Source of the DNA: Nitrospira sp.
GTDB taxonomy: Bacteria > Nitrospirota > Nitrospiria > Nitrospirales > Nitrospiraceae
Assembly: GCA_013696305.1 (NCBI GenBank)
Contig: JACCYV010000131.1
Coordinates: 1 to 41,197 of the forward strand
DNA: 41,197 nt
Direction: 5' to 3'
This document shows positions 1 to 6,697 of this stretch, piece by piece. Both the position numbers and the translations under genes were made by a program. Below the pieces are notes generated by a model that was not told the origin of the DNA, did no database searches, and was given only the letters and a program-made list of their open reading frames with translations. Position 1 is the stretch's first letter, and each line of letters starts with the position of its first letter.

Positions 1-126
1 CGGTGGTTTTCCCAGCTCATTTACGAAGTGGTGAATAGAGAAAGTCTGGGGGCGATTGCGACTAAAAGTGGAGGCGGAACCAGGGTAGTCCGAAACAGGG
101 CTCCGAGAAGAGCCCGGTCAGAATAA
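1..126 (+). pseudogene. 3' end of a second tyrosine recombinase/integrase (truncated by window edge; may be intact upstream)
   Basis: Frame 1 reads RWFSQLIYEVVNRESLGAIATKSGGGTRVVRNRAPRRARSE*, aligning with the C-terminus of the 5477-6679 integrase (HLRTAVNRASLGAIASKSATGTGSKTG). DNA similarity continues to the att repeat. Confidence 0.75.
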
Positions 127-195
127 CTCTGAGATATCAGCAGGAATGGTTGGAGGCGCCGGGCGGGTTCGAACCGCCGCATCGCAGTTTTGCAG
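127..195. repeat. Left att direct repeat (attL-like), including a 3' fragment of tRNA-Cys
   Basis: 69 bp ctctgagatatcagcaggaatg[g]ttggaggcgcc...cagttttgcag matches 6598-6666 with one mismatch (149 g vs 6620 a). The sequence from 151 onward is the tRNA-Cys 3' portion. Confidence 0.93.
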
Positions 196-559
196 CTTGC
201 CCAAGGGGTCTACGACGGAGGATGACCCACAGCTACCGACTAAGATTCCAGAACAATGAAATCAATAGCTTACCGATTTCCATTACGATCTACTTCGATT
301 GTTTATGATTCCGAACCGGGAGCAAAATCGGGAGTGGAACCGGGATTAAAACCGGGATCAGGGTTTGTACTTTGTTGGTAGGCGTTCGAGGTGAGATATG
401 GCTCCACGGTCCATATCCTTGTCGGACGCTTCAATCCGCATTACGCCGTAGTGCAAATGCTGGTTCTTAACCTCGACGCGCTCGTACCAAAACTCGCAAA
501 GCTTGTTATCGGTTTGGGCCAGACAGGACCTCGCAGAATTGTGCATTCTGCAGCCCCCC

Positions 560-714
560 TCAACGATGGACAAGCGCAACCTTTCCCCCAGCATCCACGA
601 GCACGTATGTCGGCGACGCATTGACCTTGAAGGCACTTGCCACCCACCGGTCTTCGTCATACCCAGTGGGAAACAGTTGCAATCCAATCAAAATTTTAGT
701 TGAGGCACGACAAA
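560..714 (-). pseudogene. Fragment of a thioredoxin-fold/TlpA-like protein
   Basis: Minus-frame translation LCRASTKILIGLQLFPTGYDEDRWVASAFKVNASPTYVLVDAGGKVALVHR* resembles the C-terminal half of TlpA/thioredoxin-like proteins (a..F.V...PT.vlvD..G). No start codon or CxxC half; in-frame stop at 560-562. Confidence 0.4.
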
Positions 715-720
715 GCTAAG

Positions 721-936
721 TCATGGAGGCCTGTCACAATCTTGGCGAAGCTGGACAGGCGGGCATTTCACGTTGGCATAAGAACAGAAGATACAGCAGT
801 CAGGAGGATTTGGCCTAAGAACTGCGTGACACGACCCGCACTCAAAGAAGACAACGCATGCATCGGTCGGCATTTCCGTCTCAGTACGCGCATTACAGTT
901 CGGGCAGCTAACCACAGACTGTGTGATTACCTCCAT
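721..936 (-). CDS. Small Cys-rich protein, GDCCVxC-domain-like (71 aa)
   Basis: MEVITQSVVSCPNCNARTETEMPTDACVVFFECGSCHAVLRPNPPDCCIFCSYANVKCPPVQ has CPNC, CGSC and DCCIFCSY..VKCPPVQ motifs. RBS-like CAGGAGGTCAC precedes the ATG. Confidence 0.8.
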   Translation of the reverse strand: MEVITQSVVSCPNCNARTETEMPTDACVVFFECGSCHAVLRPNPPDCCIFCSYANVKCPPVQLRQDCDRPP

Positions 937-1185
937 GTGACCTCCTGGATCTTAACCGTTGAGTAGCTGACCGGCGTAATGTATTCGTCGCCCTTCTCCG
1001 GGAGAAAATAGAGCATGGCAGTAGTCGTTGCAGACAGGGAAGTTTCTTGCCAAGAGTCTCATATGACCCCACAGCACCCCAGGAATTATTTTGACATTGT
1101 CAACCTTCAATAGATCTATCCTTTGGCTTTGCAAGATGGCCCCAACCGACGACCTCAGGGCACAATGTTTGGCGTGGCAGTTCGA

Positions 1186-2559
1186 CTAAAGGCAAATCGA
1201 AGTGCCTGTAGTGTTCTTGGGGCAGCTGAGCACGAAATGGTTGAGAATGGCGTGGCGCTCATATGACAGGAGGTAAACATGGAGCAAGGATGGGTCCTTC
1301 GCATCACGATGCAACAGAGGGCCATCCACACCGATCGCATGGTGGTCGAGCCAGCGATCCTGGGAGTCCAGGTGAAATCCGTAGAAGTTGCGCTGGATCG
1401 GCGGAGTTGCGACGACTTGCTCATATGACTCGAAAAAGCTCGGATTACCGATGCCGAGCGGTACCTGCCATCCCCGCTCGTAATGCTCAGGAGATGCCAC
1501 TGGAATCGCCGACCAATCGAATCCTCCGACGATTAGACGAGTAGCGTCCTGAGTCTTGTTACTGCGAAAGCGGAGTTCAATCTCAAAGAGCGACTCCGCT
1601 CGTCCGGCCGTTTTGACCTGCCGCACCATGGCTCCGGTGAGGTCGGCAAGATAGTGTAGCTCCGTTTTCCGGGGATGTGATCGGGAATAGTACCCGGGTG
1701 AGATAAAGCTCGCGAACTGAACCGGGCCCTGATACCAGTCACGATATGCCGCAGCAACGGGTGTCAGAATATTCTTCTGCTTGCGGATTTGTTCGCCCTG
1801 CGTCGCCACCGCCTCATCCCATAGCCCTCTGGCCAGAATCGGCCACTCCTGCTCAATGGTTCGAATCCTGTCCAGACGGATCGGCGTCCCTGTCGGATCC
1901 ACCCAATGTTCCAGCGACCACCAGTAAGACCAATACGACAAGCCATTCACACGTTCAAATAATTGTTTATAGAGCCCAAGTGGAAACGTGAACCATAGGT
2001 GTTCATAGATTCGCTCATCGCCGTCTTCTACAGTGAACAGGAGCAGTTCCCACAGACCGGCGTTCAAGCAGTTGCGAGCAAGATCGACGCGGGTCAGCAG
2101 CCGCTGCTCCACAGCATCTCCTCTCTCATGCACCTGGACATGAGGGGAGGGACGGGCAAACCGGACTTGCTGCCGATTCCATTCCCGATCGATCAGTCCA
2201 ACTCTCGTAAGGTCAGCATCGGCCTTCACCCAGGGAGGGACTGCCGCCACGAAGTGAGCGAGATCAACGCCCGTCAGTTCGATAGTCGCCGCCTGTGGCT
2301 GAGCCGGTTGCAACAGGAAGCGAAAATGAGTGCCATCCATCTGTTCGATTTTCAATTGACGGTGAGGATAAGCACCAAAGACCTGGCTCGTATTCTCAGG
2401 ATTGTCTGGGTAGGTCTGCTCCGAGAAGGCAGTCAGGGTCACCATCTGCTGAGGCCGGTCGTCATAGCGATTGGCGAACCAGAGTACGCCACCGATTGTC
2501 ATAACGATCAGGAAGATGATTAGAACAAGCGATCGTCGCTTCACGGTCGTAGCGGGCAT
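1186..2559 (-). CDS. Membrane-anchored protein of unknown function (about 457 aa; upstream in-frame start at 2607)
   Basis: Long ORF with N-terminal TM segment (RRSLVLIIFLIVMTIGGVLWFANRY) and a large Trp/Tyr-rich, presumably extracytoplasmic region. AAGGAAGGGGTCCT before ATG 2559. No family recognised. Confidence 0.75.
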   Translation of the reverse strand: MPATTVKRRSLVLIIFLIVMTIGGVLWFANRYDDRPQQMVTLTAFSEQTYPDNPENTSQVFGAYPHRQLKIEQMDGTHFRFLLQPAQPQAATIELTGVDLAHFVAAVPPWVKADADLTRVGLIDREWNRQQVRFARPSPHVQVHERGDAVEQRLLTRVDLARNCLNAGLWELLLFTVEDGDERIYEHLWFTFPLGLYKQLFERVNGLSYWSYWWSLEHWVDPTGTPIRLDRIRTIEQEWPILARGLWDEAVATQGEQIRKQKNILTPVAAAYRDWYQGPVQFASFISPGYYSRSHPRKTELHYLADLTGAMVRQVKTAGRAESLFEIELRFRSNKTQDATRLIVGGFDWSAIPVASPEHYERGWQVPLGIGNPSFFESYEQVVATPPIQRNFYGFHLDSQDRWLDHHAIGVDGPLLHRDAKDPSLLHVYLLSYERHAILNHFVLSCPKNTTGTSICL

Positions 2560-3135
2560 AGGACCCCTTCCTTTCTGACGAGGACGGCTGGATGCAGGAA
2601 TGCTCACATCGATAGCCGCTTGCTTCCCCGCACTGGCCGGCAGGGTGCAAAACAGCCATGCGATGATCGATGGCCGTCTCCCGAATCAGGTTGACGATAA
2701 AATGTATGATTTAGGATCGCTATGCTAGGAGAGGGGGAGCGCGGGCTTGTACTGTGCCTGAGACGATAGGAAGGACAGGACAGGGGAATCGGCCAGGCTG
2801 GCTGAATGAGACGGCTCGAGTTGGGCGAATGATAGGCGAGCTATCGATGAATCCGGCTTCTCCGCTTGTTCCGATCCAGGTGCAGACTTGATGGTGAGGT
2901 TTGGTGAGATGCCCTGTAGGAATGCCGGCTTGCAGAGTCCAGATATGCATCCAGACTATAAGTGAAATATAGGCCAGGCCAATAGTCGAGGTGAGGAACT
3001 GTGCCAGGCGGTACCGATTTGTAAGCATTAACATTAGCGTAATCACACAACACCAATCGTGTCAACCAAGTATTTTAGTTTTCAGTCGAGTAGATAAGCC
3101 TCTCGTCCTACTTTGACCATATGAATCAAGTGAAG

Positions 3136-3193
3136 CGGGGGCTGCGCCCCCGAACCCCCCGGCCGTCCGGTCCGAATGGTCCGGAGCGGCCGG
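3136..3193. repeat. Two adjacent GC-rich hairpins
   Basis: CGGGGGC-TGC-GCCCCCG (3136-3152, perfect), then CCGGCCG-TCCGG-t-CC-gaat-GG-t-CCGGA-g-CGGCCGG (3159-3193, near-perfect). Confidence 0.75.
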
Positions 3194-3413
3194 CGGGTCC
3201 TTGGGGTAAGTGTTCCGTATGACTTCTTTCCTCATTGTCTGCATGCTTCCTTTCCCTTCAACCAGGGAATCCTCGACAGAGCTAGATGACGGCCAAGCTG
3301 ACGCCTCGCCGCCATCTTCATGGATGATGCGCCATGTTCCCCTCTCACCCGTGGGGATAGTGGATGGGTGACAGGGTGAGATTGATTAGAGCAGGCCGCA
3401 GTGATCTCAGAAC

Positions 3414-4373
3414 CTACCGTTCCCTTATTCCCGCGCATGACGCGCAGAGCCACACCTCACAGGGCGCGCCGTAGAGATGAGGCCGCATCTGCACTCGCGC
3501 CCAAGCCCGCTCACACTGGCAGAACTCACACAGACGCTCTCGATGATGTTCCGTACAGATCCAATCCTTTCTGGCGCGGTCATAGAGCGTAGCGGGCTGT
3601 CCGCAACACGTGAATCCCAACAGACTTTTGATTTGGACGACACATATATGGCGGGCCTTCATAGCGGACTCCAGACGAGACCCTTGCCCAAGACAAGCTG
3701 AAGGATGGTATTGCTGAACCAAAATGGGATGCCCAGACAGCAGATCTTCCCACGTCTTGAGAAAGACGATACGAGGCACCTCGATCTGTTTCCGTATGCG
3801 TCGATAGACGTTCTGGGTCTGCCATTGATTGCGCATTTCTTCCCACATTTTGCCAATGGGGAACCCCAACGACCGTTTCCACGACCAACACATATTCACG
3901 TAGCCTGATTGATCCTGAACGTACTGGCTGATGACATAGCGGCTCAGACAATTCCTGGACCGGTGGCCTGCCTTATAGGCCTTGATCCAGACAATTGGCG
4001 CACCGTGGAGCGCTTCCCATTGCGCCGACAGCCATTCTTGCGAGATCCAGAACCGGCGAGGCCGCTCGCCATCCGGCACCCGCCAAGCCCAGAAGATATG
4101 GAGGACGCCGTGGCCTTCCTCCGTCCGCACCTGGTAGTACTCAAGGCCCTCAAAACCCAGCTGGCGTTCAATCCGTTGACGGAGTTGCTTATGGCGATAG
4201 GTCAATTTGTCGGCATTCCCACCATCCGCGGTTGAGAGCGTGACCCACAGGACCTGGAAGTGGTGAGACTCCCAGAACCAGAGGAGTGAGCGAATCCGTT
4301 GATAGCCCCGCTTCTGTTTCCGGCTCCATTCACCGACAGCAGGGACACGGTGAAAGTCCTTCCAGCGGCTCAT
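3414..4373 (-). CDS. Putative rolling-circle replication initiator (HUH-like Rep) with C-terminal Cys clusters
   Basis: LWVTLST (motif I-like), TEEGHGVLHIFWAW (motif II-like, degenerate), LSRYVISQYV (motif III-like Tyr), then CC..C..H..C..C and C..C clusters. Adjacent to excisionase-like gene in an integrase-bearing element. Confidence 0.6.
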   Translation of the reverse strand: MSRWKDFHRVPAVGEWSRKQKRGYQRIRSLLWFWESHHFQVLWVTLSTADGGNADKLTYRHKQLRQRIERQLGFEGLEYYQVRTEEGHGVLHIFWAWRVPDGERPRRFWISQEWLSAQWEALHGAPIVWIKAYKAGHRSRNCLSRYVISQYVQDQSGYVNMCWSWKRSLGFPIGKMWEEMRNQWQTQNVYRRIRKQIEVPRIVFLKTWEDLLSGHPILVQQYHPSACLGQGSRLESAMKARHICVVQIKSLLGFTCCGQPATLYDRARKDWICTEHHRERLCEFCQCERAWARVQMRPHLYGAPCEVWLCASCAGIRER

Positions 4374-4579
4374 CGGGCACCCTCCCCTTGAGGGATCGCT
4401 GGTCGAAGGCCATTCGACAGAATCCGTTCCAGCTCTTCGATCGGAATGCGAACCGCTCTGATCGAGGGCTTCACATAGGCAATCTGCCGCTTCAGGATGT
4501 ATTTCCTGATCGTACTTTCCTTCAGCCCTAACCGAGTGGCCGCCTCACGAATGGTGATCAATTTTGTACTGGGACTCAT
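4370..4579 (-). CDS. AlpA/excisionase-family helix-turn-helix protein
   Basis: LITIREAATRLGLKESTIRKYILKRQIAYVKPSIRAVRIPIEELERIL is typical of the HTH_17/Xis fold. AAGGAGGTACCCG RBS. Overlaps the Rep start by 4 bp. Confidence 0.85.
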   Translation of the reverse strand: MSPSTKLITIREAATRLGLKESTIRKYILKRQIAYVKPSIRAVRIPIEELERILSNGLRPAIPQGEGAR

Positions 4580-4607
4580 CGGGTACCTCCTTGAAAGAGT
4601 GAATGTG

Positions 4608-4647
4608 AAGAGATCATGCCTAACAATTTATAGGCGTGATTACTCTT
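4608..4647. promoter_or_regulatory. Imperfect inverted repeat; candidate operator for the xis-rep promoter
   Basis: AAGAGATCATGCCTA-N8-TAGGCGTGATtaCTCTT. The centre on the minus strand contains TATAAA, a possible -10. Confidence 0.55.
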
Positions 4648-4679
4648 GACAGGCATTAGCAAGTCGGAGGTACACTTGC
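4646..4679 (+). promoter_or_regulatory. Candidate promoter/operator for the zinc finger-int operon
   Basis: TTGACA (4646-4651), TACACT (4671-4676) and inverted repeat GCAAGT-N9-ACTTGC (4659-4679). The 19-bp spacer is long. Confidence 0.35.
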
Positions 4680-4782
4680 CAAATAAATTCATCCCCAAAA
4701 GGCCATCGAGACCGACACTATTTTGGGTGGTGATGGGATGAGGAATACGGAGAGGGCCCGGCATGAGAAAGGAGCGGGAGGC

Positions 4783-5496
4783 ATGAGCGCACAGGAGATG
4801 GCCCGTCAACAGTTCCAACAGGAACATCAGAAAGCAATCGAGCGCATCCGCACGATGCCGGATGGCGTCGTGGGTTGGGTGATCCGATTCTTACACACCG
4901 ATCTGGACGCCTTGACGCCGACGGAATGGACGCTGTTGGCCTTTGAGGTCGTGAGCTTCGTGGATGATCTGGCAGACCGGTATGGCGGGATCGTGGCCAC
5001 CGAAAGCGGCTGGAGTGTGGAAGCTGTGCCCCAGGCCAAGCCCTTTCAGACGATTCCCAGTCGCAAGGAGGCCGTGGACATTCAGGCCACGGTCCTGGCG
5101 CAGTTGGAGAACTATTGGCACGACTCGCAAGCGGTCTTCTCCTTTCCGCAACTCACACTCGTGGTCCTGGCACCGGGCGCGTTTCCTGACGACAGCGGCA
5201 CGATCATCGTGGCAGCCAAACGCAAGGCGAAGGAGTTTGAATACCGGTTTGCTCACTTGCTGGCCCAGTCAGGGGACTACATACGGCGCTGCCCCGAGTG
5301 TGCCACGATCTATTTAGCGATTCGGCGCGACCAGGTATACTGCCACCCGCGTTGTCAGGCTCGCGTGGCGTCGAGGAAATGGCGAGAAACGCATCGATCG
5401 AAGGAAATCAAGGTACCGACAGACAAGACGCGCACAAAGGCCGATTCGGCCGTGAAAGGCCGCAAGGGAGGCTTCGATGGCAAGGCGAAACGGTAA
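4783..5496 (+). CDS. Protein with C-terminal CGNR-like zinc finger
   Basis: C-terminus RRCPECATIYLAIRRDQVYCHPRCQARVASRKWRET fits the Cx2C...CxxxC pattern of CGNR-type fingers. RBS AGGAGCGGGAGGC before ATG. 3' end overlaps int start by 20 bp. Confidence 0.7.
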   Translation: MSAQEMARQQFQQEHQKAIERIRTMPDGVVGWVIRFLHTDLDALTPTEWTLLAFEVVSFVDDLADRYGGIVATESGWSVEAVPQAKPFQTIPSRKEAVDIQATVLAQLENYWHDSQAVFSFPQLTLVVLAPGAFPDDSGTIIVAAKRKAKEFEYRFAHLLAQSGDYIRRCPECATIYLAIRRDQVYCHPRCQARVASRKWRETHRSKEIKVPTDKTRTKADSAVKGRKGGFDGKAKR

Positions 5497-6679
5497 AGAC
5501 CGTGGGGTAGTGTTTAAGCAGGGCAGCTGGTGGGTTCGCCTTTATGTGAATGGCCGGGAGAAGTGGTTTCGGGCGGACTCCAAGAGCCAAGCCAAGACTC
5601 TCTACGGGCGCTTGCGATCCGAGGCTCGCGAGAATCGCTACTTTCCCGAGAAGTATGCCGCCTCTAAGGAAGTGACCCTCCGCGCATGGATCGCCCGGTA
5701 TCTGGAAGGTGTCACCTCGCCCGGCCTTCGGAATGTGCATCGCTACGGCAAGTTCTGGTCGAAGCTCCTGGGACGGAAACTCTTGACCGAGGTTACCGCC
5801 GACGACTTACGGCACATCCAAGCGAAGATGAAGCACAAAGGCAGCCGGACCGCTCGAACGATTAACCGGTACTTTGGGGCGCTGCGACGCATTCTAAATT
5901 TGGCCATTGCCGACGGCCTGCTTGCCGCGAATCCGGTCAAGGGCGTGAAGTTCTTTGCCGAGCCTGTCGGACGGCTGCGGTTCCTCAGTGACAGTGAAAT
6001 CTCCAGCCTGCGTGACACCCTCACCCCTGAAGACTGGTCAATTGTGGCGTTCGCCCTTGAAACGGGACTACGCCTTACCGAGCAGTTTCATTCCCGCTGG
6101 GATTGCCTGAATACCGAACAAGGTATCTTAACCATTCCGTTGAGTAAATCCGGCAAGACCCGGCATGTCATTCTGACAGATGCCGCGCTCGACATTGGAA
6201 AGGGTCTCACGTCTTGGATGCACAGTCCTTATCTCTTTCCGAGCCCCCTAGGCTCAGGACAACCGATGCAGGGACGAAACTTTGTGGTGAAGGTCTACGA
6301 ACCGGCTTTGAAGCGAGCGAAGATCGAGGGGGTCACCTGGCACACCTTACGCCATACCTTTGCGTCACGGGCTGTGATGGCGGGAGTCGATATCCGAACG
6401 GTTCAGGAACTCATGGGCCATTCCACGATCACAATGACCATGCGCTATGCTCATCTCTCCCCGGCTCATCTGCGAACAGCAGTGAATCGAGCGAGTTTGG
6501 GAGCCATTGCGTCAAAAAGTGCGACTGGAACCGGGAGTAAAACCGGGAGTAGTGTAAATCAGAGCGTGGAAGAGGGTCCGGTCAGAATCACCGAACCCTC
6601 TGAGATATCAGCAGGAATGATTGGAGGCGCCGGGCGGGTTCGAACCGCCGCATCGCAGTTTTGCAGACTGCTCCCTTAG
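5477..6679 (+). CDS. int: Tyrosine recombinase/integrase
   Basis: 400 aa with core motifs TGLRLTE, SKSGKTRHVIL, HTLRHTFASRAVMAG and LMGHSTITMTMRYAHL (R-K-HxxR-H-Y). Adjacent to att site; stop codon inside the tRNA gene. Confidence 0.95.
   Translation: MARRNGKDRGVVFKQGSWWVRLYVNGREKWFRADSKSQAKTLYGRLRSEARENRYFPEKYAASKEVTLRAWIARYLEGVTSPGLRNVHRYGKFWSKLLGRKLLTEVTADDLRHIQAKMKHKGSRTARTINRYFGALRRILNLAIADGLLAANPVKGVKFFAEPVGRLRFLSDSEISSLRDTLTPEDWSIVAFALETGLRLTEQFHSRWDCLNTEQGILTIPLSKSGKTRHVILTDAALDIGKGLTSWMHSPYLFPSPLGSGQPMQGRNFVVKVYEPALKRAKIEGVTWHTLRHTFASRAVMAGVDIRTVQELMGHSTITMTMRYAHLSPAHLRTAVNRASLGAIASKSATGTGSKTGSSVNQSVEEGPVRITEPSEISAGMIGGAGRVRTAASQFCRLLP
6598..6666. repeat. Right att direct repeat (attR-like)
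   Basis: Second copy of the 127-195 repeat; spans the int 3' end and tRNA-Cys 3' half. Confidence 0.93.
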
Positions 6680-6697
6680 CCACTTGGGTACGGCGCC
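6622..6697 (-). tRNA. tRNA-Cys (GCA), CCA encoded
   Basis: Reverse complement GGCGCCGTACCCAAGTGGCTAAGGGAGCAGTCTGCAAAACTGCGATGCGGCGGTTCGAACCCGCCCGGCGCCTCCA. Acceptor (GGCGCCG/CGGCGCC), anticodon arm GCAGT-CTGCAAA-ACTGC and T arm GGCGG-TTCGAAC-CCGCC all pair. Confidence 0.96.

Follow-up and report, generated by a model that had tools for sequence, protein, structure and literature searches.

How might an integrase carry a record of whether the element that encodes it is integrated or free? The question is raised by a tyrosine recombinase gene (int) in the window, by which is meant the whole stretch of 41,197 nucleotides of Nitrospira DNA that was analysed. The int reading frame runs antisense into a tRNA-Cys gene through a 46-bp repeat, a second copy of which lies at the other end of the element. 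The first-pass annotation of this DNA had described the int frame, the tRNA, the repeat, the alternative tail and both stops, and the anatomy was found to be exactly as written there; its further claim, that recombination within the repeat would join the same frame to the left end and so give Int a different 21-aa tail, is likewise what is predicted here.

The element and its integrase

The features of the locus, together with the circle tails of related elements, are collected in Table 1. The two att copies form a direct repeat of 74 nt (96% identity; 127-200 and 6598-6671) with a core of 46 identical bp, and the integrated element between them measures 6.47 kb (196..6666, with a repeat spacing of 6471). 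A complete tRNA was looked for at the left att copy and none was found, the copy there being a 3' fragment. The locus has the layout of a tRNA-targeted tyrosine-recombinase island, in that one end holds a whole tRNA and the other a direct repeat consisting of a 3' tRNA fragment, and the end of Int is encoded by the antisense 3' half of tRNA-Cys. As part of the overall explanation preferred below, it is probably a small tRNA-Cys-targeted integrative element with an int frame that crosses attP.

Table 1. Features of the window (positions are those of the window) and circle tails of the related tRNA-Arg classes
Feature	Position	Strand	Basis or detail
Degraded, frameshifted 3' end of another related int gene	11..126	+	about 75% nt identity to 6460-6666
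Left att block copy, tRNA 3'-half fragment	150..195	+	identical repeat core
Predicted circle-state C-terminal exon SLPKGSTTEDDPQLPTKIPEQ, stop TGA 257-259	194..259	+	Int-frame reading of the left end; contiguous with int only after excision to a circle (or in a tandem)
Excisionase-like HTH protein, candidate directionality factor	4370..4579	-	TIGR01764 above cut-off; HTH_17
Tyrosine recombinase (integrase), integrated form, 400 aa, ends RLLP-stop	5477..6679	+	PF00589 E=1.3e-28; phrog_1 integrase E=2e-66
Right att block copy, int side, inside the tRNA gene	6621..6666	+	identical repeat core
tRNA-Cys (GCA), integration target restored by the element	6622..6697	-	ARAGORN
Integrated-state C-terminus RLLP, stop TAG 6677-6679	6665..6679	+	host tRNA 5' half in antisense; Int frame ...AASQFC-RLLP-TAG
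Arg(TCG) circle tail			xQSTLETDSDQGGQMDMFSL
Arg(TCT) circle tail			PPEANDINKD(SV)
Arg(CCG) circle tail			DSSEIGTTKND
Arg(ACG) circle tail			ERSEANEPESA and others

At the left end, the Int frame reads codon AGC (194-196), then LPKGSTTEDDPQLPTKIPEQ, then the TGA stop. Any crossover within the repeat would exchange RLLP-stop for SLPKGSTTEDDPQLPTKIPEQ-stop and, because the 46-bp block is identical in both copies, the point of crossover inside it is irrelevant to the protein product. The expected circle junction reads int - GCAGTTTTGCAG - CTTGCCC in frame, and the predicted circle form of Int has 417 aa, compared with 400 aa for the integrated form. In the AlphaFold model, residues 328-400 have pLDDT values below 50, so that the switch is predicted to exchange the end of a floppy tail and to spare the catalytic fold; the catalytic domain (170-330) is unaffected by the tail swap. 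The circle tail of 21 aa is acidic and probably disordered. The open left frame of the window was rejected as evidence on its own, 51% of arbitrary 21-codon stretches (window 200-6400) being open.

Directly to the left of the left repeat, and absent from the first-pass annotation, lies the int remnant of Table 1; base 1 of the window is the contig end. The remnant, being the frameshifted 3' end of another int gene, suggests that an older element once stood at the left end. Serial integration is the likeliest reading, in which an earlier element once held the same tRNA-Cys and the present element inserted next to that one; the left end of the present element would then lie downstream of the tail of the older int. 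In profile searches of the element ORFs, no family matches were obtained for several other cargo ORFs. The cargo ORF at 721-936 (-) matches NF041374, a GDCCVxC domain (seleno)protein family (E=2.4e-25), and a 319-aa ORF at 3414-4373 (-), with no family match, may encode a replication protein.

It was considered whether the element is a decayed remnant in which the switch no longer works in the window strain. The older int remnant at the left and the cargo ORFs without family match are consistent with decay, as is the fact that no captured circle junctions were found when viral contigs were scanned for left-end patterns. However, int is intact and its catalytic residues are conserved, R199, K224, R292 and Y324 being invariant and H315 nearly invariant among 17 Int homologues; 46 identical bp are common to both att copies, an excisionase-like gene is present, and intact relatives occur in several genomes, homologous tRNA-Cys elements measuring 7.0-9.9 kb. 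Decay of this kind is therefore regarded as quite unlikely.

Left ends of related elements

Integrases of 68-95% identity occur at tRNA-Cys within the family Nitrospiraceae, part of the compared genomes being draft assemblies. Of 19 int loci examined at tRNA-Cys, 18 share RLLP as the end of the integrated form, and in the remaining one (G070) the frame reads further. In 10 elements the left att was located 6.5-9.9 kb upstream of int, each time with an in-frame circle tail. The first-pass annotation had proposed that homologous elements be checked for an open frame across the left att, and this expectation was borne out: all 15 distinct Cys-class left ends from Nitrospiraceae, which were collected by a search for left-end DNA, are open in the Int frame over 13-36 codons, and the related tRNA-Arg classes share the layout. 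Stops in the Cys class fall mostly near codon 21, with many tails ending at that codon, most of the tails show the pattern S-x-P-[DEKN]-x-S-T-T-x-[DE]-D, and the net charge of the tail is negative in every case.

Constraint at the codon level was assessed from pN/pS and from parsimony changes by codon position, for which all P values are approximate in view of the shortness and relatedness of the left-end sequences, the latter inflating significance. In the Cys class, the nine sequences with 21 codons gave a pN/pS of 0.67 in the Int frame (shuffle P about 0.05), against 1.12 and 0.88 when read in the other frames; over the first 12 codons, 14 sequences gave 0.68, a value that was not significant (223/1000 shuffles). 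Parsimony changes at the three codon positions numbered 11, 17 and 29 in the first 12 codons (13 left ends, P=0.005) and 19, 30 and 35 over 21 codons (P=0.07), and the pattern is flat past the stop. The nearest pair, the window and L086, differ mostly by non-synonymous changes, as judged by eye. Taken at this level, purifying selection on the Cys-class circle tail is suggested weakly and in a test-dependent manner.

Outside Nitrospiraceae, a 3.2-kb contig in a Verrucomicrobiales MAG (L040) carries a 95% identical int with tRNA-Cys and is probably Nitrospira contamination. Among viral contigs, one distant locus was found (44% identity), the int of which has no comparable run into a tRNA. One Cys-class left end with an int-tail remnant (L129, G031:C1:2529197) lies about 850 kb from the tRNA-Cys and int of the same genome (G031:C1:3378486) and on the opposite strand, an arrangement for which a large inversion between att copies is a possible explanation.

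At tRNA-Arg of the TCG, TCT, CCG and ACG isoacceptors, integrases 48-55% identical likewise read into the tRNA gene, and the circle tails at these four targets are class-specific. The Arg(TCG) test set comprised 13 distinct left ends attached to the tRNA half. These gave a pN/pS of 0.26 in the Int frame, a value reached in 0/2000 column shuffles, and the other two frames gave 1.21 and 1.30; by codon position, 16, 16 and 32 parsimony changes were counted (P=0.004), and past the stop pN/pS rose to 0.94 (14-sequence set, including one internal copy, L148). These values point to strong codon-level purifying selection on the Arg(TCG) circle tail, and because nothing reads into the left end when the element is integrated, translation in the circle (or in tandems) is the best account of such constraint.

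In four genomes, elements of the Arg(TCG) class (L155, L148, L159 and L160) have a second copy resembling the left end, about 840 bp into the element. In L155, the one for which ORFs were listed, two small ORFs between the copies resemble RelB/RelE antitoxin and toxin by eye. As a non-attached control, the internal copies gave a pN/pS of 0.57, which was not significant, the copies being too few. That they form part of another translated gene was considered and rejected, as they hold short open frames beside small opposite-strand ORFs.

Relatives at tRNA-Gln provide a natural control, as their int stops a few bases short of the tRNA. Although homologous, their left ends contained nonsense codons in the corresponding frame in 3/4, compared with 0/13 of the attached Arg(TCG) left ends (Fisher P=0.006, for a small sample that is not fully independent). 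The frame thus appears to be mostly lost where int does not reach the left end.

These comparisons bear on the alternative that the left end is conserved as DNA, for example as arm-type Int or Xis sites of attP, with the open frame as a by-product. The left-end DNA can still be recognised in the tRNA-Gln elements, where the left end is not translated, it recurs in the internal copies within the Arg(TCG) elements, and in the Cys class conserved bases run on past the stop (TGAAATCAA), all of which would be expected of such sites. Yet the excess of third-position differences and the low pN/pS of the Arg(TCG) class appear in the Int frame only, with no such pattern past the stop, and in relatives whose int stops short of the left end the frame has decayed. 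On this evidence, conservation as DNA alone is largely refuted for Arg(TCG) and is judged very unlikely as a general account.

A second alternative accepts that the tails are exchanged but holds that the exchange is neutral, selection needing only an early end of the frame in both states and the tail sequence itself having no function. The variation of the Cys-class tails in length (13-36 aa) and sequence, the weak constraint in that class and the position of the tail within a region predicted to be disordered are all compatible with neutrality. What it leaves unexplained is the residue-level conservation in Arg(TCG), seen in the QMDMFSL end as well as in the pN/pS of 0.26, which goes beyond a mere need for a stop, and a neutral exchange is accordingly rated as unlikely. 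Overall, a state-dependent C-terminus kept by selection is well supported by these sequence comparisons, more weakly so for the Cys class to which the window itself belongs.

Proposed switch and known systems

The left end is thus probably a selected C-terminal exon of Int that is used only in the circle. In the free circle, the frame would read from int through the tRNA 3'-half mimic into the left end to give the longer protein; integration would cut the left-end exon off, leaving int to end in host tRNA sequence. Selection on the protein appears to maintain the circle tail, the clearest case being the related Arg(TCG) class, and the two forms of Int therefore most likely act differently. The circle form may have a role in integration, or may serve in turnover or in limiting Int after integration, and the integrated form would be the enzyme available for excision. 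For the window strain, we infer that the circle exists, that both forms are expressed and that they differ in activity. It is hypothesised, as it was in the first-pass annotation, that the exchange could act as a sensor of integration state and tune the activity or stability of Int.

The primary work on the integrase of Myxococcus phage Mx8 is reportedly that of Tojo 1996 and Magrini 1999, and phage Mx9 is said to be related. In Mx8, attP lies inside the int coding sequence, and integration supplies int with a different 3' end; the resulting integrase is still active, with changes in activity and specificity (PMC6070905). The present elements resemble Mx8 in that the int frame crosses attP and integration gives a different C-terminus with the catalytic domain intact, here as read from sequence only. 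They differ in several respects: the switch is located in a short disordered tail that follows the catalytic domain, a host tRNA gene encodes the integrated tail on its antisense strand, the same layout is seen at several tRNA targets, and the carriers are small islands rather than tailed phages. Both the Mx8 and the SSV integrases have been noted to extend across attP (Islander; PMC4383910). In the 'suicidal' archaeal integrases of the SSV type, integration splits int into two inactive pieces (PMC8371274); the recombination site is likewise within the integrase gene and commonly at tRNA genes, whereas here the whole catalytic part stays on the int side and the tail alone changes. In the integration-dependent immunity of mycobacteriophages (BPs, cluster P), attP lies inside a regulatory gene, and integration alters the C-terminus of the protein and removes a tag (PMC9635641, PMC4557955); there it is the repressor that changes and Int carries its own tag, whereas here Int itself changes. 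The principle of an integrase end altered by integration is therefore already known, with Mx8 Int as a clear precedent. What appears to be new is a family directed at tRNA genes in which the circle tails are selected and specific to each class, no paper describing one having been found in the literature searched, the coverage of which was partial.

If the proposal is correct, it would describe a simple protein-level memory of integration state in which recombination edits the recombinase, and a stretch usually annotated as the non-coding end of an island could code for protein, as an exon whose expression is confined to the excised element. How tyrosine integrases tip the balance between integration and excision has long been asked, and this family would lend itself to tail-swap tests of the question, since it offers many natural variants across five tRNA targets together with a natural negative class (tRNA-Gln).

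A clamp-binding-like motif in the Arg(TCG) tails

Near the C-terminal end, all 13 attached Arg(TCG) circle tails contain Q[LMI]D[LMI]F, followed by SL. This QLxLF-like C-terminal motif is absent from the window's own tail, and inspection of the Cys-class tail revealed none. Tentatively, the elements may be viewed as a Nitrospirota-wide integrase clade in which attP serves as a splice-like joint, linking a shared body to a tail that depends on the state, with the Arg(TCG) circle tail as a sliding-clamp-binding peptide through which only unintegrated Int would be tethered to DnaN; this extended reading is considered doubtful. Were it true, tethering to DnaN would couple integration to replication and would release Int once integrated. 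Transposases that bind the beta sliding clamp carry a QLxLF motif at their C-termini (PMC4549789), to which the Arg(TCG) tail, written as Q[MIL]D[MI]F-SL, is close in sequence; it is likewise close to the QTSIF carried by the host DnaE.
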